This document shows positions 46,678 through 64,000 of a stretch of DNA of 64,000 nt, piece after piece. Location of the stretch: contig NZ_OY734020.1 in assembly GCF_963455295.1 (NCBI RefSeq), positions 2,418,001-2,482,000 on the forward strand, in the 5' to 3' direction. The position numbers were made by a program, and so were the translations under genes. Below the pieces are notes generated by a model. That model worked only from the letters and a program-made list of their open reading frames with translations, had not been told where the DNA came from and did not search any database. Within the stretch, counting starts at the first letter, position 1. The number at the start of each line of letters is the position of its first letter. This DNA is from Candidatus Thiodiazotropha sp. CDECU1 (GTDB taxonomy: Bacteria; Pseudomonadota; Gammaproteobacteria; Chromatiales; Chromatiaceae).

Positions 46678-46684
46678 TAGTATC

Positions 46685-49468: not shown

Positions 49469-49739
49469 CGGCTTTGCTGAGAGATAATCTTAAACAATGT
49501 TTCTATCTCAATAAAAAATCAGGAAATATCCTTATATTTTTAGCATAGATTTGCTCAGGTTGATACCTCATGCATCGATTTTTTCAAATAAAAACCGGTC
49601 CTGGTGAGAGGTTACGAATAGATAATAGGAGCGAATAATTAAACTGTGAAAACGAGGGTGCGATAAACCTCTGCTTGTAAACCCTATCGCCAGGATTTAG
49701 AATCCTATTAAAATAATATTCAACAAAGGGAGCTTGTTC

Positions 49740-50246
49740 ATGAATAAACTTAAATGTTTGTTTATACTGGGAATTACAGGATTTTTTGGAACAGCAAACG
49801 CGCTACCTATATTCAGTCACAGTGTGGATAGCTTGGGTCTGTACACCATAAGCGCCGATGGGACCACTGAGCCAACCGGTCTTGCCGGACTGAATGTGGA
49901 TAGTATCAGCGGGACGGCTGTCGGCAGCGACTACGGGATCAATTATTCCGATTATTTTTCAATTATTGACACCAATTCTGACAACCTGCTCTCTTTCACT
50001 TTTTCCAATAGCAGTGATCTAACAGAATTAACCGGATCTGCCTTTTATGGTGATGAATCGAGCGAGGCATTTACCTATCCCCTCGTCGTTGATGTAGTGA
50101 ATCCTCCCTCACCTGAACCTGAATCCCCTCCCACACCGGCGCTGACTCCGACACCGGATGTACCGGAACCTTCGACCTTCCTTCTCTTAGGCGTGGGTCT
50201 AATAGGACTTGGATTAATCCACTATCGTAAGATCAAGTCTTTGTAA
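49740..50246 (+). CDS. PEP-CTERM sorting-domain protein
   Basis: A 168-residue exported protein: signal peptide (about 1-21), a Ser/Asp-rich middle, a Pro-rich linker and the C-terminal sorting signal VPEPSTFLLLGVGLIGLGL ending in a basic tail (HYRKIKSL). Such proteins are processed by exosortase and usually go to the exopolysaccharide matrix. No exosortase lies in this window, so it must act from elsewhere. ATG 49740 follows AAAGGGAG. Confidence 0.93.
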   Translation: MNKLKCLFILGITGFFGTANALPIFSHSVDSLGLYTISADGTTEPTGLAGLNVDSISGTAVGSDYGINYSDYFSIIDTNSDNLLSFTFSNSSDLTELTGSAFYGDESSEAFTYPLVVDVVNPPSPEPESPPTPALTPTPDVPEPSTFLLLGVGLIGLGLIHYRKIKSL

Positions 50247-50377
50247 TTATTCCCAGCGAATCGAATCATAGGGAGACCCCACCCCGGTCTCCCGTTTTTC
50301 ATCATCATCAATGATGAATTCCTATCTTCCAGCCATGGCATCCGCTTGGCTTCGAGAACAGACACAGGATCCTGGAC

Positions 50378-50587
50378 TCAGGACTCACATCTATCTTCGA
50401 TCGCTATTCCTTTTTTATATTCTGCGATATGCAGAATCTCCGCTATCTGCTTGTGGTACGCCGTATCCGAGGGCCAGTAGAATACATCGCCAGTCTCTTT
50501 CTCCTCAATCCACCTGGCGGCGCCTTCGCTAGATCGGGTAATCAGCTCTTTGATCTTAGCGTTAGAGGGGTTTCGATAAACAATCAT
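50378..50587 (-). CDS. small hypothetical protein
   Basis: A 69-residue soluble protein without a recognised family. Support is the strong ribosome site AAGGAGCAGGAAT before ATG 50587 and a plausible protein composition (MIVYRNPSNAKIKELI start, a WIEEKETGDVFYWPSD centre). Confidence 0.6.
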   Translation of the reverse strand: MIVYRNPSNAKIKELITRSSEGAARWIEEKETGDVFYWPSDTAYHKQIAEILHIAEYKKGIAIEDRCES

Positions 50588-51349
50588 ATTCCTGCTCCTT
50601 CCGCTGTGTGTTTTTCTTGATCACTATTATCTCAACCACAAAAAGCGCGAAATAGTGAATAATACCTATCGCAATTGTTAGTTAGTGCACTCTCGAGTCA
50701 CTTTGCTGGCAGGAGACTATGCGATATTGGGGGCACACCACTGCCCGGTAAATTTCACGTTTTGGATATCAACTTTGTAAAGTGAGGGATATTGCCGTCA
50801 TATGTATTGATTAAGCCGCCGCGGTATGGCTCTTCGGTTCCACAAAATGTAGGACATTCAATATTAGTAGATTTTGATAGGGTCCTTTGTATCTGATATA
50901 CATCTTCCTGTCTTCTTCTGATATACCCTAAAAAAAATAATATTTTGTAGGAATCATCCTACATTATTTCAATAGCACTATCCGTATAATTAGCCTTAAA
51001 ATTATGAGTTCCGGGCAAAGCACCATGGATCGAAAGGACCTGCTAATAGTTTCTGACAGAGAACGTTGTAAGTATTTTGCGAGAAGATTTCTGAACACAC
51101 CCCACCAACGACTGAGCGTGATTTCAGGATGATTTACCTATACAAACGTTTTTGAAATAGAATAACTGTAGTTGCAGTAGTCGTTAATCTCACTGATGCC
51201 CGGTCTCTTTTGTGATACTTGACAACTTTTGTTGACATATTTTTCCTTGAGGCTACAACATGATGCATGCAACAGTACTGCAATCTCTAGTAACCCATAA
51301 TTACCCTATTCAGCCTGATCTGTAGCACAGTAATCAGAAGGTGTTTCCC
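50588..51349. other. 760-base gene-poor region
   Basis: AT-rich DNA with no convincing gene. A 42-residue frame (51004-51132, plus) begins like a response-regulator receiver but stops early and lacks a ribosome site; it may be a relic. Two TTGACA-like hexamers near 51229-51239 could serve the next gene. The palindrome at 50946 is listed separately. Confidence 0.5.
50946..50963. promoter_or_regulatory. perfect 7-bp-arm palindrome TGTAGGA-ATCA-TCCTACA
   Basis: A perfect dyad within the gene-poor region, with another TGTAGGA half-site at 50849 in direct orientation 97 bases away. It may be an operator for a dimeric regulator or a small hairpin. Which gene it would serve is unclear. Confidence 0.35.
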
Positions 51350-51667
51350 ATGGAAAACAGACGCATTGGCGAAGGCCCTATTCCCCCCATTCCAGAACTC
51401 TATATCAATAAACATCAGGTTCATGGTTTAACCATATTAAGAAAATTTGGTTGGAAACTGGTATGCATCAGAAGATCGGATGATATCAATCCCTCTGTAA
51501 TCCTTAAAAACAAAGCGGAAGATGCTTTGGGCATACTCGAGACAGATGGCACGCTACGCATAAACATAGACCTGGAAATTAGAAAGGCGAGTATATTTGA
51601 GCCCAGCTCAGTTGATTCCAATACAGATTATCTTCTATCTAGATATACAGAATCGAATGTTAAATAA
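51350..51667 (+). CDS. hypothetical protein
   Basis: A 105-residue soluble protein with no recognised domain. Features are the MENRRIGEGPIPPIPELY start, FGWKLVCIRR and a short GILETDGTLR strand. ATG 51350 has an AGAAGGTG site; a GTG at 51341 is the other candidate start. Confidence 0.6.
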   Translation: MENRRIGEGPIPPIPELYINKHQVHGLTILRKFGWKLVCIRRSDDINPSVILKNKAEDALGILETDGTLRINIDLEIRKASIFEPSSVDSNTDYLLSRYTESNVK

Positions 51668-51740
51668 TTCAGTGGTTATATAAAAACACAAATAATCCAT
51701 TAATATCTTTGGTCATCTCTCACTTCACTTCCGGCAACAA

Positions 51741-52040
51741 TCACCTTACTAACGAAAGCAGCAGTCCACCAACTATCATAACAAGTAAAATTGGTGCTAT
51801 ACCCAATACACGTGGCCACTGGCCCAAACGCTTCAGATTTATTAGGGTAAATCCTAGCAGATAGAACGCCAGGCTGAGCGACAGGATATAGAAAGCCGCG
51901 AAACTGAGCGTAGCGGCAGCAGCTCCTGCCAAATCGTTTGACCAACCGATTAAACGCGGCAAGACTAGCGACAGCACGAGCGAAACAACACTTCCGACGA
52001 ACAGGGATGTGATAGTGGATTTTTCGCTGTGATTGTTCAT
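51741..52040 (-). CDS. small membrane protein
   Basis: A 99-residue protein with three hydrophobic helices (about 10-30, 40-66, 77-97) and no recognised family. The frame is preferred over a longer overlapping frame (51700-52104) on the same strand because it alone shows a membrane-protein pattern. Confidence 0.65.
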   Translation of the reverse strand: MNNHSEKSTITSLFVGSVVSLVLSLVLPRLIGWSNDLAGAAAATLSFAAFYILSLSLAFYLLGFTLINLKRLGQWPRVLGIAPILLVMIVGGLLLSLVR

Positions 52041-52127
52041 GACGTGTAAGGCAGTAGGCTTTATTAGAGTGTCCGTTGATATAAGGGAAGTTCAGAACAC
52101 CCATTAACTGTTATGTTTGTCGAACGA

Positions 52128-52877
52128 TCACTTAGACATATCGCCGCTCTCGGGTTGCAAGGGGATTTTATCTCTTTGCGTGAAGTTGGCTTGCTCGAGT
52201 AAAACCTTGTACTTGTAGCCAGAACCGATATCTATATTATTCCGAATTGTGCCGCTTACAGTGACGAGCTCACCTGGTGATACAATCTCCTCAGATGTGA
52301 CGATCAGCCTGTTGTTAGGTTTTATACCTGTACCATCCTGCAATGTGATCCAATTCTTTCCCATGATATTAAGGCTGACTTTTACAACCATTGCCCTAAG
52401 TGCTACGTTCTGGTCGTTTAACCGGGATGCGTTAGCGATAATCTCTGCTATTGTCATACCTCCTGACAAAGGTGATATCTCACCAGACAAGGGAGCCTGT
52501 ATGGAAGCAGGGTGAGTCGATCTTGTGCCAATTGACTCGTCTTCCCCCATCATCGAACTATGATAACTTTCCACGGAACCCTCACCCACCCGATTTGCCC
52601 GTTGTACAAAGATGATAGAGTCGAACGTTCTATCCAATGCTTTGCTGTAAAAATTCTTCATCAACATACCACCCTTGTACTCGACCTCATCCCCGGCAGC
52701 GATTATCAATCGAGTGGTTGCAATCCACCTATTCTGATCTTTAAGCCGAATGTAGGTATAACTCCCCACATCGATAATCTCTGCAACCGAGCCTGATCCA
52801 GTACCCACCTCATCAGCAGATGCTGACAATCCAGTAAGCAGGCAAATTGCCAACACTAACGGTCTAAAGTAATACAT
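52128..52877 (-). CDS. NrfJ-like OB-fold periplasmic protein
   Basis: A 249-residue exported protein (signal peptide about 1-21, ending SASA). The first domain has SVAEIIDVGSYTYIRLKD and MLMKNFYSKALDRTFDSI, a pattern I know from NrfJ-related proteins; the second has KVSLNIMGKNWITLQDGTG and a closing GSGYKYKVLLE, an OB-fold. NrfJ-like proteins are found beside multihaem cytochromes in Geobacter-type bacteria, and the cytochrome cluster starts 280 bases to the right, divergently. ATG 52877 gives the signal peptide; the longer frame from 52937 does not. Confidence 0.75.
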   Translation of the reverse strand: MYYFRPLVLAICLLTGLSASADEVGTGSGSVAEIIDVGSYTYIRLKDQNRWIATTRLIIAAGDEVEYKGGMLMKNFYSKALDRTFDSIIFVQRANRVGEGSVESYHSSMMGEDESIGTRSTHPASIQAPLSGEISPLSGGMTIAEIIANASRLNDQNVALRAMVVKVSLNIMGKNWITLQDGTGIKPNNRLIVTSEEIVSPGELVTVSGTIRNNIDIGSGYKYKVLLEQANFTQRDKIPLQPESGDMSK

Positions 52878-53160
52878 TCTTGTCTCTTGATATAATTGAG
52901 TAAGGTTAGTTTCGACAGGCAACCTAGTTAGTCTCATGCTTTTGATTCAGGCAGAATATGAAACTGATGAGCATCGAAAAAGCTGTGTTTACGGATGCGA
53001 AGTTATTTCTCTTCTTCTCTATTATCAGAAAAGTCAGCAGACTGGAAATCGATTTCAGACAGGCTTCCTGAGACACAGGAGTTAAGCTACCATACATTCA
53101 AGCGTACTCGATCAGCACCTCTAATACAAAAAAACAGCTAACACTCTACCCATCGGGAGT

Positions 53161-54258
53161 ATGAACGTGAGCCTTCAATCAATAAGTAATTTCCCCAATA
53201 ACCGTTATCAATCAATATTCATGATGGTACAGGTAGTTGCACTATTAGCAATAATTGCTCTGATGTCAGGCTGCGCCTCTCGTACCCCCTCATCCGCATC
53301 TGAAAATGATCAAGCAGACAACTTCGTTTGGCCTGCACCACCGGCAAAACCCCGAATCCGCTATCTTGGCAGTCTCAAATCCTCAGAATCACTGAACGAG
53401 GGGGGTAAACTGAACTTACGTGACTGGTTTCTTGGAAAAAACGAAGAAGAATCAATTGCTCTAATAAAACCTTATGGTGTACACAGCGACTCACTAGGCA
53501 GAGTATATGTGGCTGATACCGGTATTGCTGGGCTCGTGGTATTTGATCTCAACAAACAAAGCTTGGCCTATTGGGGCACTTCCGGACCAGGTGCTCTTAA
53601 GAAACCTACAGGTGTAACAACCGATTCTCAAGGAAATGTATACGTTAGCGATGTGATTGATCATCGGGTAGTTATTTTTGATAACGAGGGACGGTTTTTA
53701 AATGCATATGGTGGCAAGGATGTTCTTACTTCACCAGTTGGCCTGGCATTCAATGATAGTACCCAACAACTATATGTTGTCGACTCTAAACAACACCAAG
53801 TGATTGTTTTTAACCAAGATGGTGGCGTGGATTTCACCATAGGAAGCCGTGGTGATGAGAATGGGAATTTTAATTTCCCCACCAATATTGCCTTGGATCA
53901 GAGTGGACTGCTCTATATAGCTGACACGATGAATTTTCGTGTCCAGATATTCGACCAGACGGGTAAACACCTCAAAAGCTTCGGCAAACTTGGTGACGGA
54001 CGCGGCCATTTTAGCCGTCTAAAAGGGATAGGAATCGATAGTGAAGGTTACATCTATACCGTGGATGCAGCATTCAACAATGTGCAGATTTTCAATCAGG
54101 ATGGCCAACTTATGTTGGCGCTGGGTCAATCCGGTACAGGGCCTGGAGGATTTTATCTTCCTGCTGGCGCTCACGTCGATCGAAACAATCGAATCTTTAT
54201 TGCCGACCAATTGAATCAGCGAATACAGATGTTTGAGTATCTAGGCGATACTAAATAA
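53161..54258 (+). CDS. NHL-repeat beta-propeller lipoprotein 1
   Basis: A 365-residue lipoprotein with lipobox MSGC (Cys near residue 39) and six NHL repeats from about residue 105 on (for example FNFPTNIALDQSGLLYIADT, then RVQIFDQTGKHLKSFG), enough for a six-bladed propeller. It is a paralogue of the gene at 58468. NHL propellers often neighbour nanowire cytochromes; an assembly or docking role is an inference. An internal ATG at 53221 just before the hydrophobic segment is an alternative start. Confidence 0.9.
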   Translation: MNVSLQSISNFPNNRYQSIFMMVQVVALLAIIALMSGCASRTPSSASENDQADNFVWPAPPAKPRIRYLGSLKSSESLNEGGKLNLRDWFLGKNEEESIALIKPYGVHSDSLGRVYVADTGIAGLVVFDLNKQSLAYWGTSGPGALKKPTGVTTDSQGNVYVSDVIDHRVVIFDNEGRFLNAYGGKDVLTSPVGLAFNDSTQQLYVVDSKQHQVIVFNQDGGVDFTIGSRGDENGNFNFPTNIALDQSGLLYIADTMNFRVQIFDQTGKHLKSFGKLGDGRGHFSRLKGIGIDSEGYIYTVDAAFNNVQIFNQDGQLMLALGQSGTGPGGFYLPAGAHVDRNNRIFIADQLNQRIQMFEYLGDTK

Positions 54259-54302
54259 CTTATCCTTTAACAGTAACTTTTTACATATAACAATTTAATT
54301 AT

Positions 54303-54587
54303 TTCTTAACTATTCTTAATTTTTTCTTAATACTTCTATTGACGAAGGATATCTACACATAATGATTTCACATGAATGTTTATCTCAACAGATCTCATAG
54401 AATAACCCAACTAGAAGTTCGTTATATTTCAGACCTTCCTCTCTGATCATAAATAATTTTTTTAAATGACTTAAACAAGCATTAAGTTCCTTAAAACCAT
54501 TGACGGACTACGTATATTGGCATAGGATATAAACTCAAATGTGGGATATATTTCCCATTTCTTAAGCAAACCTTAAGAAATCTTAAG
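54303..54587 (+). promoter_or_regulatory. three clusters of helically phased CTTAA half-sites
   Basis: Cluster A: CTTAA at 54305, 54315, 54326. Cluster B: CTTAA at 54470, a degenerate CATTAA at 54480, CTTAA at 54490. Cluster C: CTTAAG at 54561, 54572, 54582. Within each cluster the spacing is 10-11 bases, so all sites face one side of the helix. This resembles tandem sites of OmpR/PhoB-type response regulators, such as the PmrA box CTTAAG-N5-CTTAAG. The 453-base gap 54259-54711 has no other visible content and precedes the cytochrome operon. Confidence 0.6.
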
Positions 54588-54711
54588 AACTGCTGATGTA
54601 CAAAAGCAGTCAAGGCATTGATGCAGTAGAAGCACCCCAAGCAGTAAAATAATATATATTCTGCACTAAACGGAGCTGGTGCATCATCCTTTGCCTTACT
54701 GGAGGATTGGA

Positions 54712-55338
54712 ATGAGAAAAACAGCGATCCTGTCACTTCTAGTTGCCCTTTTCACCCTTTTTACCACATCATCATTTGCAGATATTACTGGTACATCTCA
54801 CGACCTTACCAGTCAGACAACATTGTTAACCAATGCTGGAAATACTCAAATTTGCGCTTACTGTCACACCCCTCATAATGCCAGCACTACCAACAGCACA
54901 ACTCCGTTGTGGAATCATGAGGACACCACAGCAACATACACCATGTACAGCAGTCCATCGCTTGACATGACCATTGCTGGCGCACCGTCAGGTGTCTCTC
55001 TTGCATGCCTGAGTTGTCATGATGGATCTGTAGCTGCTGACCAATTAATTAATTTTCCCAGCGGTGTTACCCCTGCTCCAGGCGTATTCACCTTAGGTGA
55101 CAGTCTTGGTACTGACCTTAGTAATGACCACCCGATCTCCCTGACCTATAACTCGACACAAGATACGGATTTTGTTGCACCAGTAGGTTCTCAAGTCAAC
55201 GGTTTGCAACTGTTCGGTGCGGGTGGGGATCAAGTCGAGTGCGGCACCTGCCACTCTGTTCATGACAATACGAATGAGCCTTTTCTACGAGTGAGTAATG
55301 CCGGCAGTGCGCTTTGCCTGGCTTGTCACATTAAATAG
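54712..55338 (+). CDS. tetrahaem c-type cytochrome, OmcE-like (possible extracellular filament subunit)
   Basis: A 208-residue exported protein (signal peptide about 1-23) with four haem sites: CAYCH (followed by TPHNAS), CLSCH (DGS), CGTCH (SVHD) and CLACH three residues from the end. Layout, length and motifs (TSHDL start, TPLWN, SNDHPIS, FLRVSNAGSALC) match the family that includes the Geobacter filament-forming cytochrome OmcE, also a tetrahaem protein. Polymerisation is inferred from family only. ATG 54712 has an ACTGGAGGATT site. First gene of the operon 54712-62501. Confidence 0.85.
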   Translation: MRKTAILSLLVALFTLFTTSSFADITGTSHDLTSQTTLLTNAGNTQICAYCHTPHNASTTNSTTPLWNHEDTTATYTMYSSPSLDMTIAGAPSGVSLACLSCHDGSVAADQLINFPSGVTPAPGVFTLGDSLGTDLSNDHPISLTYNSTQDTDFVAPVGSQVNGLQLFGAGGDQVECGTCHSVHDNTNEPFLRVSNAGSALCLACHIK

Positions 55339-55385
55339 TCTCAAAGCGATTTCATCGCGTGATCCGCATGGCGGACAGGCCGAGC

Positions 55386-56054
55386 ATGGTAATCAGGGTA
55401 ATATCCATTACCCTGGTTATCTCGTGCTCGATTTTGATTGCTGCATGTAGCACTGAAACGAAAAAGTTGTTCTTTGATATTCAGCCCCCCACAGCCAAGG
55501 AACTGGCTGAACAAGAATTGAATAGGCAGACAGCCTTGATTAAATCTCAAGCAATGGATCTTAGTGAGAATCAATCAGGAAATATGAGTAGCGCATTTTT
55601 CTATCCCCCTGATGACAATGCTCCAAGACCAGATATTGAGTCAATCAAGGAGTGGGATAAGGTAAAGAAAATTTTGCCGAAAGACGATGAGAAGAATATT
55701 GACTGGTCATATGCGCTAGAGCAAGGAATGATTCGGCCTCGCCCAGGTAAGGATCTCATGACATTGTGGGCCACCGCCTTTCAATGGGATTTCATAATCA
55801 AAGCCGAGGAGCGTGAGGACGATGCATTCTTTCCCCACTCCGCCCATACTGTCTGGCTTGGTTGCAAGAATTGTCACAATCCCTCTCTCTATCCCTATAA
55901 AAGAAACCCTGCAACCATGAAAGAGATGAAACGCGGTGCATCTTGTGGAGCCTGTCATGGCAGAAAAAAAGTCTCTTTCTCCCTCAAAGCATGCGACCGC
56001 TGTCATATAAACAGCGATGATGAAGAAGAGGAGGAGGAAGAGGACGAAGAATGA
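55386..56054 (+). CDS. tri-haem c7-type cytochrome lipoprotein
   Basis: A 222-residue protein with a lipobox (LIAAC) and, after a ~130-residue spacer, a tri-haem c7-type domain: FFPHSAHTVWLGCKNCH, CGACH and CDRCH. The spacing matches the short tri-haem domain often seen in extracellular electron-transfer loci. It ends in an uninterrupted acidic Asp/Glu tail, unusual for a cytochrome and possibly a docking or metal-binding strip. Starts at 55359 (GTG) and 55368 are alternatives. Probably anchored in the outer or inner membrane, facing the periplasm. Confidence 0.85.
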   Translation: MVIRVISITLVISCSILIAACSTETKKLFFDIQPPTAKELAEQELNRQTALIKSQAMDLSENQSGNMSSAFFYPPDDNAPRPDIESIKEWDKVKKILPKDDEKNIDWSYALEQGMIRPRPGKDLMTLWATAFQWDFIIKAEEREDDAFFPHSAHTVWLGCKNCHNPSLYPYKRNPATMKEMKRGASCGACHGRKKVSFSLKACDRCHINSDDEEEEEEEDEE

Positions 56055-56106
56055 TTAACAACAACAGATTGTCATTTGTGTTTCAGGGGTAAAAAGTGGT
56101 GGAGTT

Positions 56107-56451
56107 ATGTGTAAGTACAGTTGTCTTTTGCTGTCGACGTTAATAGTTTATTTGACGTTTTGCTCACCGCTTTCCGCGGCTCCCGGAGATATTCAATATA
56201 CTCGTGAAGGTGGAGATCCTGAAAAACTGAAATCATTTCCTCCATCTATTTTTCCCCACTGGATACATCGTATTAATTACCGCTGTGATGCCTGCCACAA
56301 CACAATATTTGAAATGAAGACAGGCTCTACATCAATAAATAAGGATCTAATGAAGGAAGGCAAAGTCTGTTCCACTTGCCACAATGGCACTGAGGCTTTT
56401 GACGATGGATTTGCGAATTGTAATCGCTGTCATCTGATCAAAGAGAAATAA
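56107..56451 (+). CDS. periplasmic tri-haem c7-type cytochrome
   Basis: A 114-residue protein: signal peptide (about 1-24), then a single tri-haem domain with FPHWIHRINYRCDACH, CSTCH and CNRCH. This is the minimal c7-type shuttle fold (the 'nanowire_3heme' type). It probably carries electrons across the periplasm between inner-membrane donors and the outer-membrane complex. It is 52 bases after the tri-haem lipoprotein gene, with which it shares the haem domain. Confidence 0.9.
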   Translation: MCKYSCLLLSTLIVYLTFCSPLSAAPGDIQYTREGGDPEKLKSFPPSIFPHWIHRINYRCDACHNTIFEMKTGSTSINKDLMKEGKVCSTCHNGTEAFDDGFANCNRCHLIKEK

Positions 56452-56473
56452 GAGTATGCTTCCGGGGGAGATC

Positions 56474-58471
56474 ATGCCAAAAAACATGATATCTCCTATC
56501 TATAGGGGTTTACTTATTGCATTCATCTATTTATGGAGTGACAGCCTGTATGCCGAACTCGGGGGTAGTCTTGGCCTTTATCCCACAGAGTTAGATTTAA
56601 TCGTGAAATATGATGGCACCAAAAGGCGCAATGGCAGCGACTCCCGTGAAACCGAGTGGGAAGCGGGCCTGAGGATCGGACAAATGGGGTATCTGCTCGA
56701 TCCGAAAATCGTCTGGTTTCTTATTGATATCGAACCTGTCTACACATGGACAGAATTCGACTCCAGTGAGAGTCGCCAGGAAAACGACGGGGAGTTCTTG
56801 AACTATTTATTCCAGACCAATCTGTTACAGGGTACTCCTGGCCCCTTTGGTCTGGATCTGTCCGCTCAAAAAAGTTCTAATCTCAACACCGGTTCCCTGG
56901 GCAGTCGTTTCGATACGGTCATCGATACATATAACACCACTGTACACTGGAAAAATCCTGCTTTTCCCACAAGTATCTCGTATGAAGAGAGAGCGCTTGA
57001 TGAGGAGTTTCGCACAAGCCTGAACAGTTCTGTCATCGAGCGAGATGAAATTTTGAAGAGCTGGGTGTTAAAAGGGCGTAGCAGCAAATTGAGCATGTAT
57101 CTGGAGCGCAGTGATCTTGATGATAGAATCACCACCCGCAACCAGGATTACGAACTGGACAAAGGCAACTTATCCCACAATTTATTTTGGGGTAGTAATA
57201 GTCACCTGCATTCAGTTGTAACCTATTATGATCGCACAGGATTTAATGCCAACGAACGCATAAGCATCGATGAGACTGCTAGAATTCAACACCTGGATAA
57301 TCTCTATAGCCGGACATCATATCACTATCAGTCCATAACCCAGACCATTGATAATACAGAACATGGTGGTGATTTTGAGCTGCACCATAGACTTCATAAG
57401 AATTTGGATACGATTGCCCATGTCAATATCAACACTCGCGAATCAGATGATCTGGATGAAGACAGGTGGCGGTTTGGCTTAGAGACGCAATACTCGAAAA
57501 ATAAACTGTTCGGTGCAAATATCAGAGGCGGACTCCGTGCCTCCTACCAGGAAACCGACCGCATCTCCAACCTGAGCACAATTGATATCATCGATGAGAG
57601 TCAGACAGTACCACTGACAGGCGCGATTTTACTTGATCAGCGTTTTATCATCCTCAATACGATTATCGTTACTGATAGCAACGGGGTAGTTGTATATGAC
57701 GAAAATACGGATTATACAATCCTGCAGCTGTCTGGCGATCTAACACAGCTGCAAACTGTTCCTGGCGGAAGAATCAACAGCGGGGATAACATACTGGTAA
57801 CTTACCAGGCACAGCAATTACCGTCACAGGAGTTTTCCACGACATTTACCAATTATCATTTTTCAATTGACTTCGATTGGATACGATTCACTCATTCCGA
57901 CAGTAAGTCAGATGACAAACTGATATCAGGCGCCAGTGAAAGCTTTCTGCAAAACACCCGTAACACCTTTACCGATATTGAGTTCCATTTCAAACCCTTA
58001 GGTGTAGATACTGTACTGGGCGCAGAACGTCGTTTTACCCTCTCTGGCGGGTTCGAATCAACCACGCATACATACAGTCAGCGTTTTAATTGGACATCAT
58101 CATGGAGCAAGAGAAAAAGGGCTATTGCCTGGAATATAAATGCCACCCAGTCATTCATAGAGCAGGACACACTCGACACAGATCTCTATCGCATCGATCT
58201 TACTGCCAACTGGCATGCCAGTCGAAATTTAACTATCCGCCCAACGATAAGTGGATGGAAAAGAAAGGATAGAGGGAGTGCAATTACAGGCGGATTCAGA
58301 GACGACCGATTCACCACTGCTGGCATTTGGGCTCAATGGCGATATCGAAAGCTTGAGCTTGACTTCAACTATCATCATGACCGTCGTGAAGTTACCAGTA
58401 TACAAAATAATGAAACGACCCAAACGACCGATAAAAGGTTGATGTTCACCCTGAGACGGAGAATCCTGTGA
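56474..58471 (+). CDS. outer-membrane beta-barrel protein of the cytochrome cluster
   Basis: A 665-residue protein with a signal peptide and long runs of alternating polar/aromatic strands typical of a large barrel, ending in a strand with terminal hydrophobic residues (RLMFTLRRRIL). A periplasmic insert near 410-445 (VYDENTDYTILQLSGDLTQ) resembles the small domain of other large bacterial barrels. In the cluster it is the natural candidate for the porin sheath of a porin-cytochrome conduit (role like MtrB or OmbB, without clear sequence identity). ATG 56474 follows CCGGGGGAG. Confidence 0.75.
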   Translation: MPKNMISPIYRGLLIAFIYLWSDSLYAELGGSLGLYPTELDLIVKYDGTKRRNGSDSRETEWEAGLRIGQMGYLLDPKIVWFLIDIEPVYTWTEFDSSESRQENDGEFLNYLFQTNLLQGTPGPFGLDLSAQKSSNLNTGSLGSRFDTVIDTYNTTVHWKNPAFPTSISYEERALDEEFRTSLNSSVIERDEILKSWVLKGRSSKLSMYLERSDLDDRITTRNQDYELDKGNLSHNLFWGSNSHLHSVVTYYDRTGFNANERISIDETARIQHLDNLYSRTSYHYQSITQTIDNTEHGGDFELHHRLHKNLDTIAHVNINTRESDDLDEDRWRFGLETQYSKNKLFGANIRGGLRASYQETDRISNLSTIDIIDESQTVPLTGAILLDQRFIILNTIIVTDSNGVVVYDENTDYTILQLSGDLTQLQTVPGGRINSGDNILVTYQAQQLPSQEFSTTFTNYHFSIDFDWIRFTHSDSKSDDKLISGASESFLQNTRNTFTDIEFHFKPLGVDTVLGAERRFTLSGGFESTTHTYSQRFNWTSSWSKRKRAIAWNINATQSFIEQDTLDTDLYRIDLTANWHASRNLTIRPTISGWKRKDRGSAITGGFRDDRFTTAGIWAQWRYRKLELDFNYHHDRREVTSIQNNETTQTTDKRLMFTLRRRIL

Positions 58472-59475
58472 TCAGGTATTTTATGTTATCTCTTTTACTG
58501 ATGTTATCTGCCTGTTCCTCAACCGGTCCAGTGGCTATAAAAAAACCTGACCATTCTCCCCGCCTGGTTTGGCCGGCTGCTCCTGAGAGATCGCGTATAG
58601 AGTTCGTCACTGAATTTCGTGACGCTGCCGACCTGGGCATCGAGAAATCATTTTTTCGAAAATTGATAGAGCTGTTCACAGGTGGTGTTGAACATAGTCT
58701 GTCACGTCCCTACGCTGTCGCTGTTCATAAGAACAGAATAGCTATTGCCGACCCCGATGCAGCAATGGTGCATGTTTATGAATTAGATCAACCCTCATAT
58801 AGCAGCATAGATTCTGCCGGTGACTACCACTTTGAATCACCAATTGGCGTTGCTATTGACGGTGACAGACTCTTCATAGCTGATTCTAAATTGAATAAAG
58901 TATTCGTTTTAAATAAATCTTATGATGTACTGCAGGTCCTGGAAATTTTTTCTCGGCCAACCAGCCTGGCCTTTGATCCAATTCTGCAACACCTATATAT
59001 CTCTGACACTTTAGCTCATGAAGTACATGTCTATGATTATGCAGGAAACTATTTATATAAAATAGGCAAGCGCGGGGATAAGAAAGCACAATTCAATTAC
59101 CCGAGCCATTTAGCATTCTCGAATAACCGGCTGCTTGTCAATGACACCATGAATTTTAGAATTCAGGCCTTTGATAGCAATGGTCGTCATTTACAGACCT
59201 TTGGAAAGCAAGGCGATGCTTCCGGTTACTTCACCCAAACAAAAGGACTTACGGTTGACTCTGACGGACATATATACGCTGCAGACGCTTTGGCTAATCG
59301 CGTTCAGATATTCAATCAGAGAGGCGAGTTTTTGCTTGAGTTCGGTAAATCCGGCGATCAACCTGGCGAATTTCACATGCCCTCTGGATTAACAGTTTGG
59401 GACGACAAAATCTTTGTTGCCGACTCTTATAATCAACGCATCCAGGTTTTTAAGTACCTGAAGGTGGATGAGTGA
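58468..59475 (+). CDS. NHL-repeat beta-propeller lipoprotein 2
   Basis: A 335-residue lipoprotein (lipobox LSAC) with six NHL repeats from about residue 80, paralogous to the protein at 53161 (shared NDTMNFRIQAFD/ADTMNFRVQIFD and closing QRIQVF/QRIQMF strands). Its GTG start overlaps the barrel stop in a GTGA arrangement, so the two proteins are made together and likely work together at the outer membrane. Confidence 0.9.
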   Translation: MIRYFMLSLLLMLSACSSTGPVAIKKPDHSPRLVWPAAPERSRIEFVTEFRDAADLGIEKSFFRKLIELFTGGVEHSLSRPYAVAVHKNRIAIADPDAAMVHVYELDQPSYSSIDSAGDYHFESPIGVAIDGDRLFIADSKLNKVFVLNKSYDVLQVLEIFSRPTSLAFDPILQHLYISDTLAHEVHVYDYAGNYLYKIGKRGDKKAQFNYPSHLAFSNNRLLVNDTMNFRIQAFDSNGRHLQTFGKQGDASGYFTQTKGLTVDSDGHIYAADALANRVQIFNQRGEFLLEFGKSGDQPGEFHMPSGLTVWDDKIFVADSYNQRIQVFKYLKVDE

Positions 59476-59476
59476 C

Positions 59477-61270
59477 ATGCCTAAGGTCTTTCTTCTCTTT
59501 ATATTACTGGTAACGGCTTCCAATACAGTTCATGGTGGAGTGGCTGATACACTGCATAACCTGTCAACATCAGGGCCAGGATTAGTGAAAAGTCAAACGG
59601 AAGATCGAATCTGTATTTTTTGTCATACACCCCATGCATCTGCTCCGGACTCCCCTCTATGGAACAGATCCTCAAGCGGTGTATATATAGACTACCAAAG
59701 CAGTACCAAGGATGCAGAGGCTGGTGTAATGAGTTCGTCCTCGGTGTTGTGTCTCTCTTGCCATGACGGGACCATTGCCTTGGGCAATATGATCAATCCT
59801 GGCGTGACCAACGACCTTGGCAACACATTTATCACTGGCCGTTCACTGGTCGGTACCGACTTGTCCGATGATCATCCGGTATCTATTTTTTATAACCCGG
59901 GTCTTTTAACGACGGATCCAGACCTGGCTCATCCCAATAACGTTGATCTGCCACTCAGAAACAATGAACTTCACTGCTCATCCTGTCATGACGCACATGA
60001 AAATATTCACCCACCCTTTCTTCACAAATCCACATTAAATGGTGAATTGTGCACCACCTGTCATCTACCCTCAGGCACTGGCTGGAACTGGACTAGCAGT
60101 TCACATGCCACTTCAAACGCGACACCTCAAGGGACGAATCCCTGGCCTGAGCGCAAACCTGAGTGGACAGGTCTGACAGTACAGGAGAACGCGTGTATGA
60201 ATTGTCACGCGCCTCACAATGCAACAACACCTGAACGACTTATCAAAGACAGCGAAGAAGATACCTGTTACCTCTGCCATAATGGAACTGTTAGTCAGGC
60301 TGATATATTGGCTGAGCAGCAGAAATTCTATCACCACCCTGTAGAGCAGACGCCTAATATAGATCATGACTCCGCACGTATAGAAAACCCTTTGACAATG
60401 TCACTGCATGTGGAGTGTGAAGATTGCCATAACCCACATGCCAGTTTCAGCTCTCCACCCATGATCTCATTCAATCCCAACAATCCGCTTGGGGGTAATC
60501 ATTCAACAGCACCTTTTATCAACGGCAGTATGGCCGGTGTTACAGGCATTGACATTAACGGCGGTTTTAAACCAGAGGCGGACTATGAATATGAAGTCTG
60601 TTTCAAGTGCCATGGCATACCTGGTAAAAGCGCTTGCGACACACAGCGCTGCTCCACGGCAAACAGTTACAATATGGTACGGGCAGACGGCATTTATAAC
60701 ATTCGTGATAAAGTGAATTCAGGCAATCCATCTCTCGTTTCCTATCATCCAATCGAGATCAACAATCCGCTAAACAATAGTGAGGTACCCAGCCTCCGCA
60801 ATGACATTCCCCTGACCACCATCAGCGGTCAGATCTATTGCAACGACTGTCACAGTAGCAATTCATCTCCTGCTGCTGGCGGGGTGGATCCTACTGGTCC
60901 ACATGGTTCAACCTATGAGGGCATCCTGGCACAAGCATATGACTTTGATCCGGTGAATGCCACAACGCTCTCAAACGATCTATGCTTTAAATGCCATGAC
61001 TCCGGTAATTTGTACACCGATCAATCCTTCCCTCACAATGAACATGTGATAAATAACAATCTTGGCTGTATCAATTGCCATGACCCACATGGTTCTGCAT
61101 CCAGTCCACACCTCATCAACTTCCTTACATCGTCCAACATCGCGGGTCAGGTCAGGGTAATCACTGGCGCTGGAGACTATGTCGAGCCTACCTGGATAGA
61201 TGCGGGAGTACACAACGGTAGCTGTTGGCTCACTTGTCATGGAGAAGTACATAATGGTTTTGATTATTAA
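59477..61270 (+). CDS. large multihaem c-type cytochrome (11 CXXCH + 1 CX3CH)
   Basis: A 597-residue exported protein (signal peptide about 1-20). Haem sites in order: CIFCH, CLSCH, CSSCH, CTTCH, CMNCH, CYLCH, CEDCH, CFKCH, CNDCH, CFKCH, CINCH and a last CWLTCH with one extra residue. The first 180 residues resemble the tetrahaem OmcE-like protein (RICIFCHTPH, LSCHDGT, SDDHPVS); the rest follows the doubled-CXXCH pattern. Such proteins usually sit outside the outer membrane as a terminal electron exchanger. ATG 59477 lies nine bases after AAGGTGG; 59468 is too close to it. Confidence 0.92.
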   Translation: MPKVFLLFILLVTASNTVHGGVADTLHNLSTSGPGLVKSQTEDRICIFCHTPHASAPDSPLWNRSSSGVYIDYQSSTKDAEAGVMSSSSVLCLSCHDGTIALGNMINPGVTNDLGNTFITGRSLVGTDLSDDHPVSIFYNPGLLTTDPDLAHPNNVDLPLRNNELHCSSCHDAHENIHPPFLHKSTLNGELCTTCHLPSGTGWNWTSSSHATSNATPQGTNPWPERKPEWTGLTVQENACMNCHAPHNATTPERLIKDSEEDTCYLCHNGTVSQADILAEQQKFYHHPVEQTPNIDHDSARIENPLTMSLHVECEDCHNPHASFSSPPMISFNPNNPLGGNHSTAPFINGSMAGVTGIDINGGFKPEADYEYEVCFKCHGIPGKSACDTQRCSTANSYNMVRADGIYNIRDKVNSGNPSLVSYHPIEINNPLNNSEVPSLRNDIPLTTISGQIYCNDCHSSNSSPAAGGVDPTGPHGSTYEGILAQAYDFDPVNATTLSNDLCFKCHDSGNLYTDQSFPHNEHVINNNLGCINCHDPHGSASSPHLINFLTSSNIAGQVRVITGAGDYVEPTWIDAGVHNGSCWLTCHGEVHNGFDY

Positions 61271-61343
61271 TGATCTAATCTCACACCATGTTTGTAAAAA
61301 TTACGTGACTATATCCTCACATAATTTTACTTGGGGTTAACCT

Positions 61344-62501
61344 ATGAAACTTGTCACTCAGGCACTGGTTTTATTCACACTTCTCATATCTGTTAATTTT
61401 AGCAGTATGGCCAACCCTTCCCCTGCTTTTGAAGGCAGAAAACTCTATATCTCTCACTGCTTGATCTGTCATGGTTTGGATGGAAAAGGCAACGGACCTT
61501 TAGCAAGGAAATTAAAGATCGAGCCGGAAGATCTCATTAGCTATGTACCATCTAAAAGCGACTACGCCCTGCAAAAAATAATTACCGGTAACAAGACAGC
61601 CCCTAAGTCTTTACGTTCAGGTCACGGTAAAATCAGTGAAGACATGCCAAAGTGGAAGGATGTTCTTAAACAGAGCCAAATCACCGCTTTGATCGCTTAT
61701 CTACGTTTTCTCAGCACTACCAAACACACACTGCCCGGGGACCCTGATCTCGGTTATGAGGTTTTTCAGCGTTATTGCTCCGTATGCCATGGTCGTGATG
61801 GTGACGGTAATGGAGCTTTAACCAAACTCATCGGTATTAAACCTATCGACCTTAGCAATCCGCATAAGACAGATAGTATAAGCAATAGATCTCTCGCCAA
61901 AGAGATTCTGGAAGGAAAGGGAGATTATATGCCGGCGTGGGAAGGCATACTCACCGCAAAGGAGGTCGAAGGCGTAGTAAGTTATATCAGACTGCTTTAC
62001 CAAGTATGGGCACACTTGGAAGATGGTGGACTGGTTGTCATTCTGAAATCGCCAACCGTTGATAACGATAAAAACACAGCGCACCCTTTACTGCGTGACT
62101 CATCCTGTTCAGGCAAAGTCAACTTGTCTGAAAAAGGCAAATCCGAGGCAGTTAAACTAGGAAAGCTATTCAAATCCAGGGGTATCGCAATAGACAAAGT
62201 CTTAGCCAGTCCCCACTGCCTTGCACATGAGACCGCACGATCCGCATTCGGGGGTGTTGAAACATTTGATTATCTGGCATCTCACGATAAGCTCTCTGAC
62301 GAACAGACAGACTCCTATGCTACACAACTGGAACATCGCATCGGCAGCTATAAAGGAAAAGGCAATTTAGTTATCTTTACCCATGAATCTAATATCAAAG
62401 ACCTGTCCTTTCAACAGCTAAAGGATGGATATTTTCTTGTATTAAAACCCATGGGTGATAACGAATTTGAAGAGTTTGGGATCTATAAGCTGAACAAGTA
62501 A
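61344..62501 (+). CDS. di-haem cytochrome c fused to a degenerate histidine-phosphatase domain
   Basis: A 385-residue exported protein. Two class I cytochrome c domains come first: C39-LI-CH (GLDGKGNG follows) and C145-SV-CH (GRDGDGNG follows), each with a distal MPxW methionine. From about 229 a phosphoglycerate-mutase/histidine-phosphatase-like domain follows (NLSEKGKSEAVKLGKLFKSR, VLASPHC, VIFTHESN). The catalytic Arg-His pair is replaced (VILKSP, Lys235-Ser236) and the second Arg is lost, so it is probably not an enzyme. Last gene of the operon. Confidence 0.85.
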   Translation: MKLVTQALVLFTLLISVNFSSMANPSPAFEGRKLYISHCLICHGLDGKGNGPLARKLKIEPEDLISYVPSKSDYALQKIITGNKTAPKSLRSGHGKISEDMPKWKDVLKQSQITALIAYLRFLSTTKHTLPGDPDLGYEVFQRYCSVCHGRDGDGNGALTKLIGIKPIDLSNPHKTDSISNRSLAKEILEGKGDYMPAWEGILTAKEVEGVVSYIRLLYQVWAHLEDGGLVVILKSPTVDNDKNTAHPLLRDSSCSGKVNLSEKGKSEAVKLGKLFKSRGIAIDKVLASPHCLAHETARSAFGGVETFDYLASHDKLSDEQTDSYATQLEHRIGSYKGKGNLVIFTHESNIKDLSFQQLKDGYFLVLKPMGDNEFEEFGIYKLNK

Positions 62502-62552: not shown

Positions 62553-62939
62553 TTAGCGTTGAACAATTCGCCTGGCATCAGACAGGGACTTCATCTGAAC
62601 ACTGCATTCAGTCTTCTGATCACAGATTACCGCTTTGACAAGTGCCACTGCGCCTTCATTACTACTGGGCCTGCGCCAGATAGGAATTAATTTTGTGGAA
62701 TTTTCCTCATAATCCCCTTCCATGATCAGAGGGTCATTATAAAGGCTTGCCAGATCTTCACAGCGTAGATACAACACATTGTCATGTGCTCTAGCGTAAT
62801 CGCATACCCATTGCTTCTGGTTCTCACCGGTACTCACTGCAGTAAGATACTGATCACTCGCCATTGCATTGAATGCCATAGTGAAAAGCAACACTGCCAA
62901 ACCGTGGAGGATTAATTGCGCTTTGAACGGCCTGTGCAT
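62553..62939 (-). CDS. small secreted protein downstream of a GEMM riboswitch
   Basis: A 128-residue protein: signal peptide (about 1-27, ending AMAS) and a small domain with three cysteines (WVCDYAR, LRCEDL, VICDQKTEC gives two). No family recognised. ATG 62939 follows GTAGGAGATG. The mRNA leader carries a c-di-GMP-type riboswitch, so its expression should follow c-di-GMP. It converges on the cytochrome operon. Confidence 0.8.
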   Translation of the reverse strand: MHRPFKAQLILHGLAVLLFTMAFNAMASDQYLTAVSTGENQKQWVCDYARAHDNVLYLRCEDLASLYNDPLIMEGDYEENSTKLIPIWRRPSSNEGAVALVKAVICDQKTECSVQMKSLSDARRIVQR

Positions 62940-63015
62940 CTTACATCTCCTACCTTGCCATAGGAGTTCGAAACGACAAGACACACAACACTTGGTATAT
63001 CGGCCTGAATATGTC

Positions 63016-63037
63016 ACCAATTCCTTTTAATTGGTGC
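63016..63037 (-). promoter_or_regulatory. hairpin downstream of the riboswitch (possible expression platform)
   Basis: A perfect 8-bp stem CACCAATT/AATTGGTG with a 6-base loop, read on the minus strand between aptamer and gene. No U-run follows. The loop contains AAAAGG, so it might instead hide a ribosome site. Confidence 0.4.
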
Positions 63038-63039
63038 AT

Positions 63040-63138
63040 ATTACGGTTTCGGTAATCCATCGGTCATAGGCGGTAGAGCTGCCCTTAGACTGTGATTTTG
63101 CGTCCCTGCCTTTCAGCAGGTTTGCCTTTTCGAACACG
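63040..63138 (-). ncRNA. GEMM-I (c-di-GMP-I) riboswitch
   Basis: On the minus strand the sequence reads AGGCAAACC, a CTGC-GAAA tetraloop hairpin, GGGACGCAAAA, then CTAAGG and a second arm ending in TACCGCCTATGACCGATGG. These are the conserved blocks of GEMM-I aptamers in correct order and spacing, including the GAAA loop and its receptor side. By alignment to the Vibrio Vc2 aptamer the base at position 20 is G, favouring c-di-GMP over cGAMP, though that alignment was done by eye. The regulated gene is the small secreted protein at 62553-62939. Confidence 0.85.
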
Positions 63139-63168
63139 TATAGAAACAAGTCATCACTTGCTTCTATA
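63139..63168 (-). other. 13-bp-arm hairpin just upstream of the riboswitch
   Basis: TATAGAAGCAAGT and its partner (one G:U-type mismatch) enclose a 4-base loop, directly before the aptamer on the minus strand. It might be a transcript 5' hairpin or the end of an upstream transcript; no T-run is visible. Confidence 0.4.
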
Positions 63169-63215
63169 GCCTGTAGCGACCCACTTCTGTGTAAACTTTA
63201 GCGATTGTTGAAGAT

Positions 63216-63261
63216 GGTGGATTGTTCAGGAATCAAACCTTCGCCTACCTGATTAAATGTC
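63216..63261 (-). pseudogene. diverged copy of the tRNA-Lys 3' end
   Basis: These 46 bases align without gaps to the tRNA-Lys 3' fragment at 63542-63587 with nine differences, including the acceptor end and the region next to the anticodon. It is most simply read as an old, decayed att site. Confidence 0.55.
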
Positions 63262-64000
63262 GTATATGGTGAAATAATCTTTAATCTACTTATTTGGAAT
63301 GGCGGCAGCATCTTACAGTACCGCCAAAACCGCTGATGCCTTCAGAGGGGTCGAATAATGTCTCTCGGATAAAGTACGCCTCAGCGATGGGGATGGCTGT
63401 CAGTAACCACTACACCGAAGAGGAGAGATCCTCGATGAATGGAGAACTTTCTTAGTACGAATTCCGAGAATTTTATTCGGAAAGGTTTTCAGAAAGCTGA
63501 AATGAAGGGGTGGAAAAACAACGTAACCCTTTGATTTGATTGGTGGGTCGTGCAGGGATCGAACCTGCGACCACCTGATTAAAAGTCTCCATTACTTCCA
63601 TTCATAATCTATTGGTTACAAAGATATGTTGACGGTAGTTGGTTGTTTCAAACCTTTATAAAACAACATCTTATAACCATGTTGACGGTAAGTTTTCTAA
63701 TAACTTTTGCACAAAAAACAACTCAACCTGATTAAATCGTAGCCAGTAAGAAAGCCTGTGTGAACTCCATAATTATGAGGGATAGCTATATTTTTCAACA
63801 ATTTAGGCAAATATCTGTAATAATTCCCTCATAAGCAACTATCTACCCATATCCACTGCTCCACATTTAATCCGCACCAATTATCTTTTACCCTTATGAA
63901 TCTTTCTATCAAGAAGCAACTTCATATTTCTCATGCAATACTTCAAAGTCATTGATTCTGACAATAATAGGCCATTTGATGCGTCTCGGTTTCTTTCATT
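63262..64000. other. gene-poor window end apart from tRNA fragments
   Basis: No convincing gene was found. A short repeat GTTGACGGTA occurs at about 63628 and 63681. On the minus strand near 63915-63995 a 27-codon frame looks protein-like but opens after a stop codon and could only be a relic. Confidence 0.4.
63541..63587 (-). pseudogene. 3' half of a tRNA-Lys(UUU), likely an integration att site
   Basis: On the minus strand it reads GACTTTTAATC, the anticodon loop with UUU, then the variable loop, an intact T-arm (GGTTCGATCCC) and the acceptor end CACGACCCACCA. The 5' half of the tRNA is absent from the bases beyond. Site-specific integrases leave exactly this kind of 3' tRNA fragment at one element end. 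Confidence 0.75.

Follow-up and report, generated by a model that had tools for sequence, protein, structure and literature searches.

The 64,000-nucleotide window analysed here (2418001-2482000 of the 4.46 Mb single-contig chromosome of Candidatus Thiodiazotropha sp. CDECU1) carries at positions 53161-62501 a cluster of cytochrome, NHL-propeller and barrel genes that we regard as a candidate extracellular electron-transfer system. The list of open reading frames (ORFs) with their translations places eight genes there, all on the plus strand (Table 1). The gaps between them are, in order, 420 (between NHL1 and the tetrahaem gene), 20, 52, 4, -4, -8 and 73 bases, the negative values being overlaps of 4 bases between the barrel gene and NHL2 and of 8 bases between NHL2 and the 12-haem gene. 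Motif counting found 4, 3, 3, 12 and 2 haem motifs in the five cytochromes in gene order and none in the two NHL proteins or the barrel, and the Pfam and NCBIfam domains recovered from the eight products were NHL (twice), Cytochrome_C7 (twice), Paired_CXXCH_1 and Cytochrome_CBB3. Coordinates, motif counts and domains agree with the initial annotation, which had described eight same-strand genes with two NHL lipoproteins and cytochromes of these haem numbers. The same scans recognised no respiratory enzyme among the eight products. A fixed DNA pattern for a doubled CXXCH had zero matches in the genome, and promoter-like sites were no more frequent than in shuffled sequence (20 found against 20.6 expected).

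Table 1. Features of the cytochrome cluster and its flanks, in window positions (aa, amino acids; UetA is the tetrahaem protein of the Uet complex discussed below)
Feature	Position	Strand	Length	Remarks
Divergent flanking gene	52128..52937	-	269 aa	Accompanies the cassette within the genus
NHL1, NHL-repeat propeller lipoprotein	53161..54258	+	365 aa	PF01436 E 1.4e-27; lipobox
OmcE-like tetrahaem cytochrome	54679..55338	+	219 aa	Candidate filament subunit, UetA-like; 4 CXXCH; 7tfs match
Trihaem c7 lipoprotein	55359..56054	+	231 aa	Acidic C-terminal tail; TIGR04257 E 3.7e-17, above cut-off; lipobox
Trihaem c7 cytochrome	56107..56451	+	114 aa	Predicted periplasmic; TIGR04257 E 3.7e-18, above cut-off; 3 CXXCH
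Outer-membrane beta-barrel	56456..58471	+	671 aa	26 predicted membrane strands; inserted beta domain ~375-453
NHL2, NHL-repeat propeller lipoprotein	58468..59475	+	335 aa	PF01436 E 5.7e-26; lipobox
12-haem cytochrome	59468..61270	+	600 aa	Residues 1-200 OmcE-type module; remainder 8 haem motifs
Dihaem cytochrome c	61344..62501	+	385 aa	Weak histidine-phosphatase-like C-terminus; PF13442 E 8.7e-22; PF00300 E 0.02
Gene behind the riboswitch, protein of unknown family	62553-63020	-	155 aa	
c-di-GMP-I riboswitch	63048..63136	-		Rfam RF01051 70.7 bits

Two of the cytochromes are homologous to OmcE, the nanowire protein of Geobacter sulfurreducens. When compared with Protein Data Bank (PDB) sequences at E<=0.1, the tetrahaem protein had two matches, OmcE (7tfs, E 6.4e-37, query residues 20-219) and 9yuq (7.2e-31), an entry holding 16 chains, and its designation as OmcE-like in the initial annotation is thus borne out. 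That annotation was also right about the twelve haems of the largest cytochrome, which has eleven CXXCH motifs and one CX3CH at its C-terminus, but it had missed the N-terminal OmcE-type module of the same protein. Here the PDB search gave four matches: OmcE 7tfs (2.1e-26, residues 10-199) and 9yuq (9.7e-23), both within residues 4-199, and two weak ones, to chain A of the Mtr complex entry 6r2q (0.02) and to an octahaem nitrite reductase (0.029). The AlphaFold2 model of the 12-haem protein (predicted local distance difference test, pLDDT, 79.9; predicted template modelling score, pTM, 0.81) led to the same relative, since among the eight Foldseek matches listed the only significant one was 7tfs (E 7.8e-10; template modelling (TM) score 0.69 by target length). 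The last 395 residues alone had no significant PDB match (best E 0.033); residues 376-544 match PF22113, the family of MtrC/MtrF domains II/IV, at 39.6 bits (cut-off 30), and two generic multihaem Pfam families also exceed their cut-offs in this protein. The tetrahaem protein and the 12-haem N-domain share 37.6% identity over 213 columns, and a search of this genome at E 0.001 brought up no OmcE-like gene beyond these two.

The histidines lying outside the haem motifs were examined in homologues from 80 named loci, which are the best 80 of at least 384 confirmed with the 12-haem query; the 12-haem alignment kept 74 of the 80, and 59 of those 74 were used for structure prediction. In the tetrahaem protein, His 41, 66, 151 and 195 are kept in 57, 53, 57 and 57 of 57 aligned sequences, and their equivalents in the 12-haem protein (His 30, 56, 136 and 177) in 75, 74, 75 and 75 of 75. 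From this alignment we infer that the four OmcE-aligned histidines are distal haem ligands. The 12-haem protein has nine further such histidines that 74 or more of 75 sequences share, and three more that are shared by 69 of 75, 69 of 75 and 67 of 71. For its 12 haems the candidate distal ligands thus number 13 to 16, at least one more than needed. Conservation of CXXCH itself is partly built in, because the scan used the patterns LCLSCHDG and CxDCHNPH and required at least 11 haem motifs; the distal histidines were not selected for. In OmcE and OmcS filaments a haem-ligating histidine comes from the adjacent subunit (PMC9473688; this and the other PMC sources are cited from excerpts).

The barrel was modelled by AlphaFold2 with 56 sequences (pLDDT 85.5, pTM 0.73), its alignment comprising 55 homologues with E < 1e-80 and a span of > 520 aa. 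In the model we count 15 long strands at 86-371 and 11 at 458-668, 26 in all, so that the protein is a predicted outer-membrane barrel; the non-spanning barrel that, according to the initial annotation, would make a dedicated conduit unlikely was not found. Of the eight columns that are invariant or almost so, five lie in the beta domain inserted at 375-453. Foldseek returned large outer-membrane barrels, LptD and MtrB (6r2q_B) among them, the latter with the highest query-normalised TM score of the 50 matches listed (0.42). Such modest scores support a large barrel, not kinship with MtrB, and the sequence profile found no relative in the PDB, MtrB included (best E 0.88), nor was there any match in Pfam or PHROGs. 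An NCBIfam hit to a phage tail-tube family (23.6 bits, cut-off 60) was rejected as spurious in view of the 26-strand model and the empty PHROGs result.

The 80 loci, with phyla as given in the record titles and mostly from metagenome-assembled genomes, represent 12 phyla, two further records being of symbionts to which no rank is given: Planctomycetota (24), Pseudomonadota (15), Acidobacteriota (9), Verrucomicrobiota (7), Thermodesulfobacteriota (6), Bacteroidota (5), Myxococcota (4), Nitrospirota (4) and four others with one locus each. The large cytochrome has exactly 12 haem motifs in 70 of the 80, and hidden Markov models (HMMs) iterated from the window proteins detected the barrel in 62 and NHL proteins in 76. 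In 68, the 12-haem gene starts no more than a few hundred bases from the end of an NHL gene, several of the other 12 loci having little upstream DNA (72 bases in L056, 3 in L070). Where at least 7 kb lie upstream (50 loci), the barrel was seen in 43, an OmcE-like tetrahaem gene in 43 and two or more NHL genes in 45, and 37 loci combine all of these with an NHL gene adjoining the 12-haem gene. The order seen most frequently is tetrahaem, NHL, haem lipoprotein, barrel, NHL, 12-haem; the window and L055 differ in having their first NHL gene ahead of the tetrahaem gene, and other orders occur in some loci. The cluster is not a product of chance, for the gene set, and largely its order too, is found again in many phyla, and six of the eight window genes correspond to a widespread cassette. 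The initial annotation had taken all eight genes as one system with an order that should extend beyond this genome; much of the order is indeed shared and a six-gene cassette is conserved, whereas the dihaem gene turned out to be lineage-specific.

The closest named relatives of the 12-haem protein among the best 80 loci belong to Candidatus Thiodiazotropha (ex Monitilora ramsayi) (80%), the Stewartia floridana symbiont (78%) and the Escarpia spicata endosymbiont (68%); the tubeworm symbiont carries the 12-haem gene, at which its contig begins. An order-level search found a barrel match in 20 of 210 genomes, three of them weak (E 1e-5 to 2e-12), and 12 of the 20, this genome included, are among the 22 searched that belong to the genus. 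In a sample of the class, 47 of 51 positive genomes had at least two matches to the 12-haem query (those of G308 being two halves of one gene). Three gammaproteobacterial loci (L146, L147 and L148) have the same cassette followed by octahaem protein genes; L146 and L147 also show an adjoining trihaem gene and then an NHL gene directly before a 24-haem protein (L146) or one of at least 15 haems (L147, cut off by the locus end), a trihaem/NHL/many-haem set that looks like a second electron-transfer cluster.

Among the smaller components, the two NHL proteins are paralogues with 35% identity. The lipobox scan found none in the free c7 protein of 114 aa, which sits between the c7 lipoprotein and the barrel. 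In the c7 lipoprotein the three haems lie C-terminally, and the lipobox is followed by LFFDIQPPT, which resembles the FFFDGVP motif of the haem lipoproteins that precede the barrel in other phyla. A haem gene, with 3 to 19 haems, stands directly 5' of 42 of the 61 barrel genes examined, and the FFFDGVP-consensus motif follows the lipobox in 28 of these 42, as against 10 of 1480 haem-free ORFs; five loci with two trihaem genes count as motif-less in the 28 of 42, the free c7 being nearest the barrel. The pattern was scored on the relatives, where it matches those of the c7 lipoprotein in L055, L057 and L058, and the window protein was likened to them by its sequence alone. On account of this resemblance and of these matches, the window probably has in its c7 lipoprotein its own version of an interchangeable haem lipoprotein. 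A free c7 with a c7-lipoprotein partner occurs in five of the 80 loci (L054, L055, L057, L058 and L067). As for the dihaem gene, a near-full-strength homologue lies beside the cassette only in L054, L055 and L056, the three nearest of the 80, with weaker matches in other loci too, and by this distribution it is a local addition outside the conserved cassette.

With regard to the flanks, the divergent 269-aa gene has a DNA match on the cassette contig in nine of 11 other cassette-bearing members of the genus and also in G126, a genome without the barrel. Its protein matches nothing in Pfam, NCBIfam or PHROGs at E 0.01, and it looks internally repeated and NrfJ-like. The c-di-GMP-I riboswitch on the other side also adjoins the cassette in L138, L139, L140 and L055. 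The cassette is missing from G129, a draft genome (~99% complete) of the same species. In G129, sequence matching window 46684-52058 (97.6%) is followed after ~1.4 kb by sequence that matches, at 94-96%, a stretch lying ~16 kb on, which starts at a tRNA-Lys; the ~16 kb from 52059 to ~68130 (past the window end), with the whole cassette, are absent. A tRNA-Lys(ttt) is the far border of this stretch, and a transposase pair (rve and HTH_Tnp_1 domains) lies at the G129 junction. A 115-base piece of the junction resembles window 63167-63307 (71%) and is perhaps a remnant, and window 63523-63587 resembles the G129 tRNA-Lys end (86%), ARAGORN calling no tRNA there. The cassette of the Stewartia symbiont is likewise near a tRNA-Lys(ttt). 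Shared ancestry with loss of the cassette in G129 is the simplest account; a recent gain is conceivable.

Elsewhere in the genome, dsrA, the sole sulfur gene examined, scores above its profile cut-off. This fits sulfur oxidation, without proving the direction of sulfur metabolism, and together with the nearest named kin in Candidatus Thiodiazotropha it is consistent with the sulfur-oxidising gammaproteobacterium assumed in the initial annotation. NapC/NirT has four near-full-length matches in this genome. An open frame of 1703 codons that contains numerous cytochrome c7 units (G000:C1:2594270-2597569), ~112 kb beyond the window end, possibly encodes another large electron carrier.

We believe that the most plausible explanation of the cluster, to which we give a probability of roughly 0.6 on sequence and models, is a trans-outer-membrane electron conduit ending in an OmcE-type cytochrome filament; its filament, direction and function are what we infer. 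NapC-type quinol cytochromes would probably feed the c7 proteins, and these would pass electrons to and from the c7 lipoprotein on the inner side of the outer membrane. The 12-haem protein would carry electrons across, with its 8-haem part in or on the barrel. No other cytochrome of the locus is long enough for this, and with only three haems in each of the other non-filament cytochromes of the set it is the best candidate for the membrane bridge. The tetrahaem protein would polymerise on its OmcE-type module, which is the best candidate for the base of the wire and would act as a socket or first protomer, and the NHL propellers may be scaffolds or assembly factors. In a sulfur oxidiser such a conduit could possibly dispose of electrons when oxygen is short, or take them up.

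Several points tell against this explanation. Within reach, an OmcE-like gene was not seen in seven of the 50 loci, nor a homologous barrel in seven of the 50, and the cassette is dispensable, as the same-species genome G129 lacks it. The OmcE-type module may reflect merely the shared ancestry of a four-haem unit. The AlphaFold2 models are of single chains without haem, and the match of the 12-haem C-terminal part to PF22113 above cut-off slightly lowers the odds by suggesting a surface rather than an in-barrel place. In Geobacter itself, the role of cytochrome filaments as carriers of extracellular electrons is disputed by one paper (PMC11077965).

These points bear on the other explanations as well. 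The tie between the tetrahaem protein and OmcE is one of homology only, so that the former could be a soluble or surface-bound carrier of OmcE fold, and the cluster a barrel-cytochrome conduit without filament that reaches minerals or partner cells at short range. We consider this unlikely, since the four distal-histidine positions are kept in 53-57 of 57 tetrahaem proteins and the matching PDB entries are that of the OmcE nanowires (7tfs) and one with 16 chains (9yuq). The frequency with which a haem gene lies 5' of the barrel (42 of 61) and bears the motif (28 of 42), which could be a barrel-docking segment, would fit a different arrangement, in which the haem lipoprotein (c7 here, with 5 to 19 haems elsewhere) threads the barrel and the 12-haem protein is wholly extracellular or periplasmic. 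The similarity of the 12-haem C-terminal part to an MtrC/MtrF surface domain slightly raises the odds of such an arrangement, but we judge three haems, as found here, too few to span the membrane alone, and the 12 motifs are kept in 70 of the 80 loci; it is a possibility to be taken seriously, even if we doubt it. Finally, the genes might form an ordinary periplasmic respiratory cluster, for nitrite or other anaerobic respiration, beside an unrelated outer-membrane porin. The 12-haem protein does have NrfB/NrfH-like and DmsE-like NCBIfam matches, all below curated cut-offs, along with its weak PDB match to an octahaem nitrite reductase (E 0.029). We find this account very improbable, as the barrel, NHL2 and 12-haem genes overlap here and stay together in many phyla, the domain scans of the eight products yielded no respiratory enzyme, and both the tetrahaem and 12-haem proteins are OmcE homologues.

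The initial annotation had held that two NHL propellers paired with a barrel matched no known system. This does not stand: the Uet complex of Tenderiales and Gallionella, according to the excerpts of its description, contains a tetrahaem (UetA), a barrel (UetC), trihaems (UetDEG), two NHL proteins (UetHI) and an undecahaem cytochrome (UetJ) (PMC10734462), its large-cytochrome cluster as published spans 11 and 12 haems (PMC10734462), and Tenderia has three trihaems, a tetratricopeptide repeat (TPR) gene and an undecahaem cytochrome (PMC5371394). A second family obtained with the 12-haem query yielded three loci (L143-L145) that are Uet-type by their fit to the published list, with the order tetrahaem, isomerase, presumed barrel, c7, c7, a protein of ~500 aa, c7, NHL, NHL, 11-haem and ResB-like. 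The isomerase was confirmed in L143, L144 has an ORF at that place and L145 has none separately listed; no TPR was recognised in the 506-aa protein of L143. The tetrahaem protein and the 11-haem N-domain of L143 both match OmcE, the three 11-haem proteins are of 881-912 aa, and among the three presumed barrels only that of L145 matches the window-barrel HMM (E 1e-6). The ResB-like gene 3' of the 11-haem gene was confirmed (L143:16220-17248), and this cytochrome-assembly factor may belong to the Uet operon.

The window cluster shares with Uet the OmcE-like tetrahaem (54679-55338), as in UetA and the L143 protein, the two NHL proteins (53161-54258 and 58468-59475), as in UetHI, and the c7 pair. 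In contrast, no peptidyl-prolyl isomerase (UetB, present in L143) was found among the eight products by Pfam and NCBIfam, there are two trihaems instead of three (UetDEG) and no extra gene at the UetF place, and the large cytochrome has 12 haems in 600 aa instead of 11 in ~900 aa. With the isomerase and the third trihaem lacking and the large cytochrome different, the cluster is not simply Uet; judged by its gene content it is a sister variant, and so of a kind already known. In a tree of the OmcE-type modules, the 11- and 12-haem N-domains stand on one side of a branch and the free tetrahaems on the other, at a Shimodaira-Hasegawa-like approximate likelihood ratio (SH-aLRT) of 92.8, which is below the significance mark (five long-branch rows left out), and the alternative grouping of 11-haem modules with Uet tetrahaems was not rejected (approximately unbiased test, p-AU 0.469). 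The tree is thus only suggestive of a single branch for these N-domains, and the fused modules may have arisen once or more than once. In the open-licence PMC literature, seen in excerpts and with the primary Uet and OmcE papers outside that scope, we found neither a link between UetA or UetJ and OmcE nor the cassette in lucinid or tubeworm symbionts.

For Geobacter, the route of electrons between the inside of the cell and its extracellular cytochrome filaments has been described as poorly understood (PMC10553843). The conserved cassette encodes a homologue of a wire subunit, a barrel and a large cytochrome that begins with a domain homologous to that subunit, and offers a concrete and testable junction. 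We propose tentatively, and with the odds somewhat against us, that the 12-haem protein is the missing junction between conduit and nanowire, its fused protomer nucleating or anchoring the tetrahaem wire as UetJ would in Uet, and that at least 12 phyla, animal symbionts included, have one such wire-and-socket cassette, in which the haem lipoprotein can be exchanged. The cluster would also place a nanowire-type conduit in a genus of lucinid-clam symbionts, which it could link to host tissue, sediment minerals or neighbouring cells, and the strain-level absence of the cassette provides a natural comparison.

Other known systems resemble the cluster in part. Like MtrCAB and MtoAB, it pairs a barrel, predicted here to have 26 strands, the number reported for MtrB (PMC12133095), with a multihaem protein, and MtrB 6r2q_B is among the Foldseek matches of the barrel (TM 0.42). 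The resemblance to MtrC is limited to the match of 12-haem residues 376-544 to MtrC/MtrF domain II/IV, with no MtrC fold match by Foldseek, and, unlike those systems, the cluster has no decahaem protein of the MtrA/MtoA family above cut-off (12-haem protein against TIGR03508, the DmsE family: 66.5 bits, cut-off 192.2). OetABI of the sulfate-reducing partners of ANME combines a porin, periplasmic and lipoprotein cytochromes and putative OmcX/OmcS-like filament cytochromes in one cassette (PMC10553843), and so, compared by description only, has the same types of part. OmcX-related cytochromes have 11 or 12 haems (PMC5539420) and by that description could be relatives of the 12-haem protein. In Geoalkalibacter ferrihydriticus (Ga0056053_02426-02431), an OmcE homologue and two NHL proteins are again described together, there with MtoA homologues (PMC12016550), which the window cluster lacks. 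The OmcE filament of G. sulfurreducens (7tfs) is matched by the tetrahaem protein and the 12-haem N-domain in homology, in the four haems and in the four aligned distal histidines; the difference here is that the module shares its cluster with a barrel, and that a second copy of the module occurs there in fused form.

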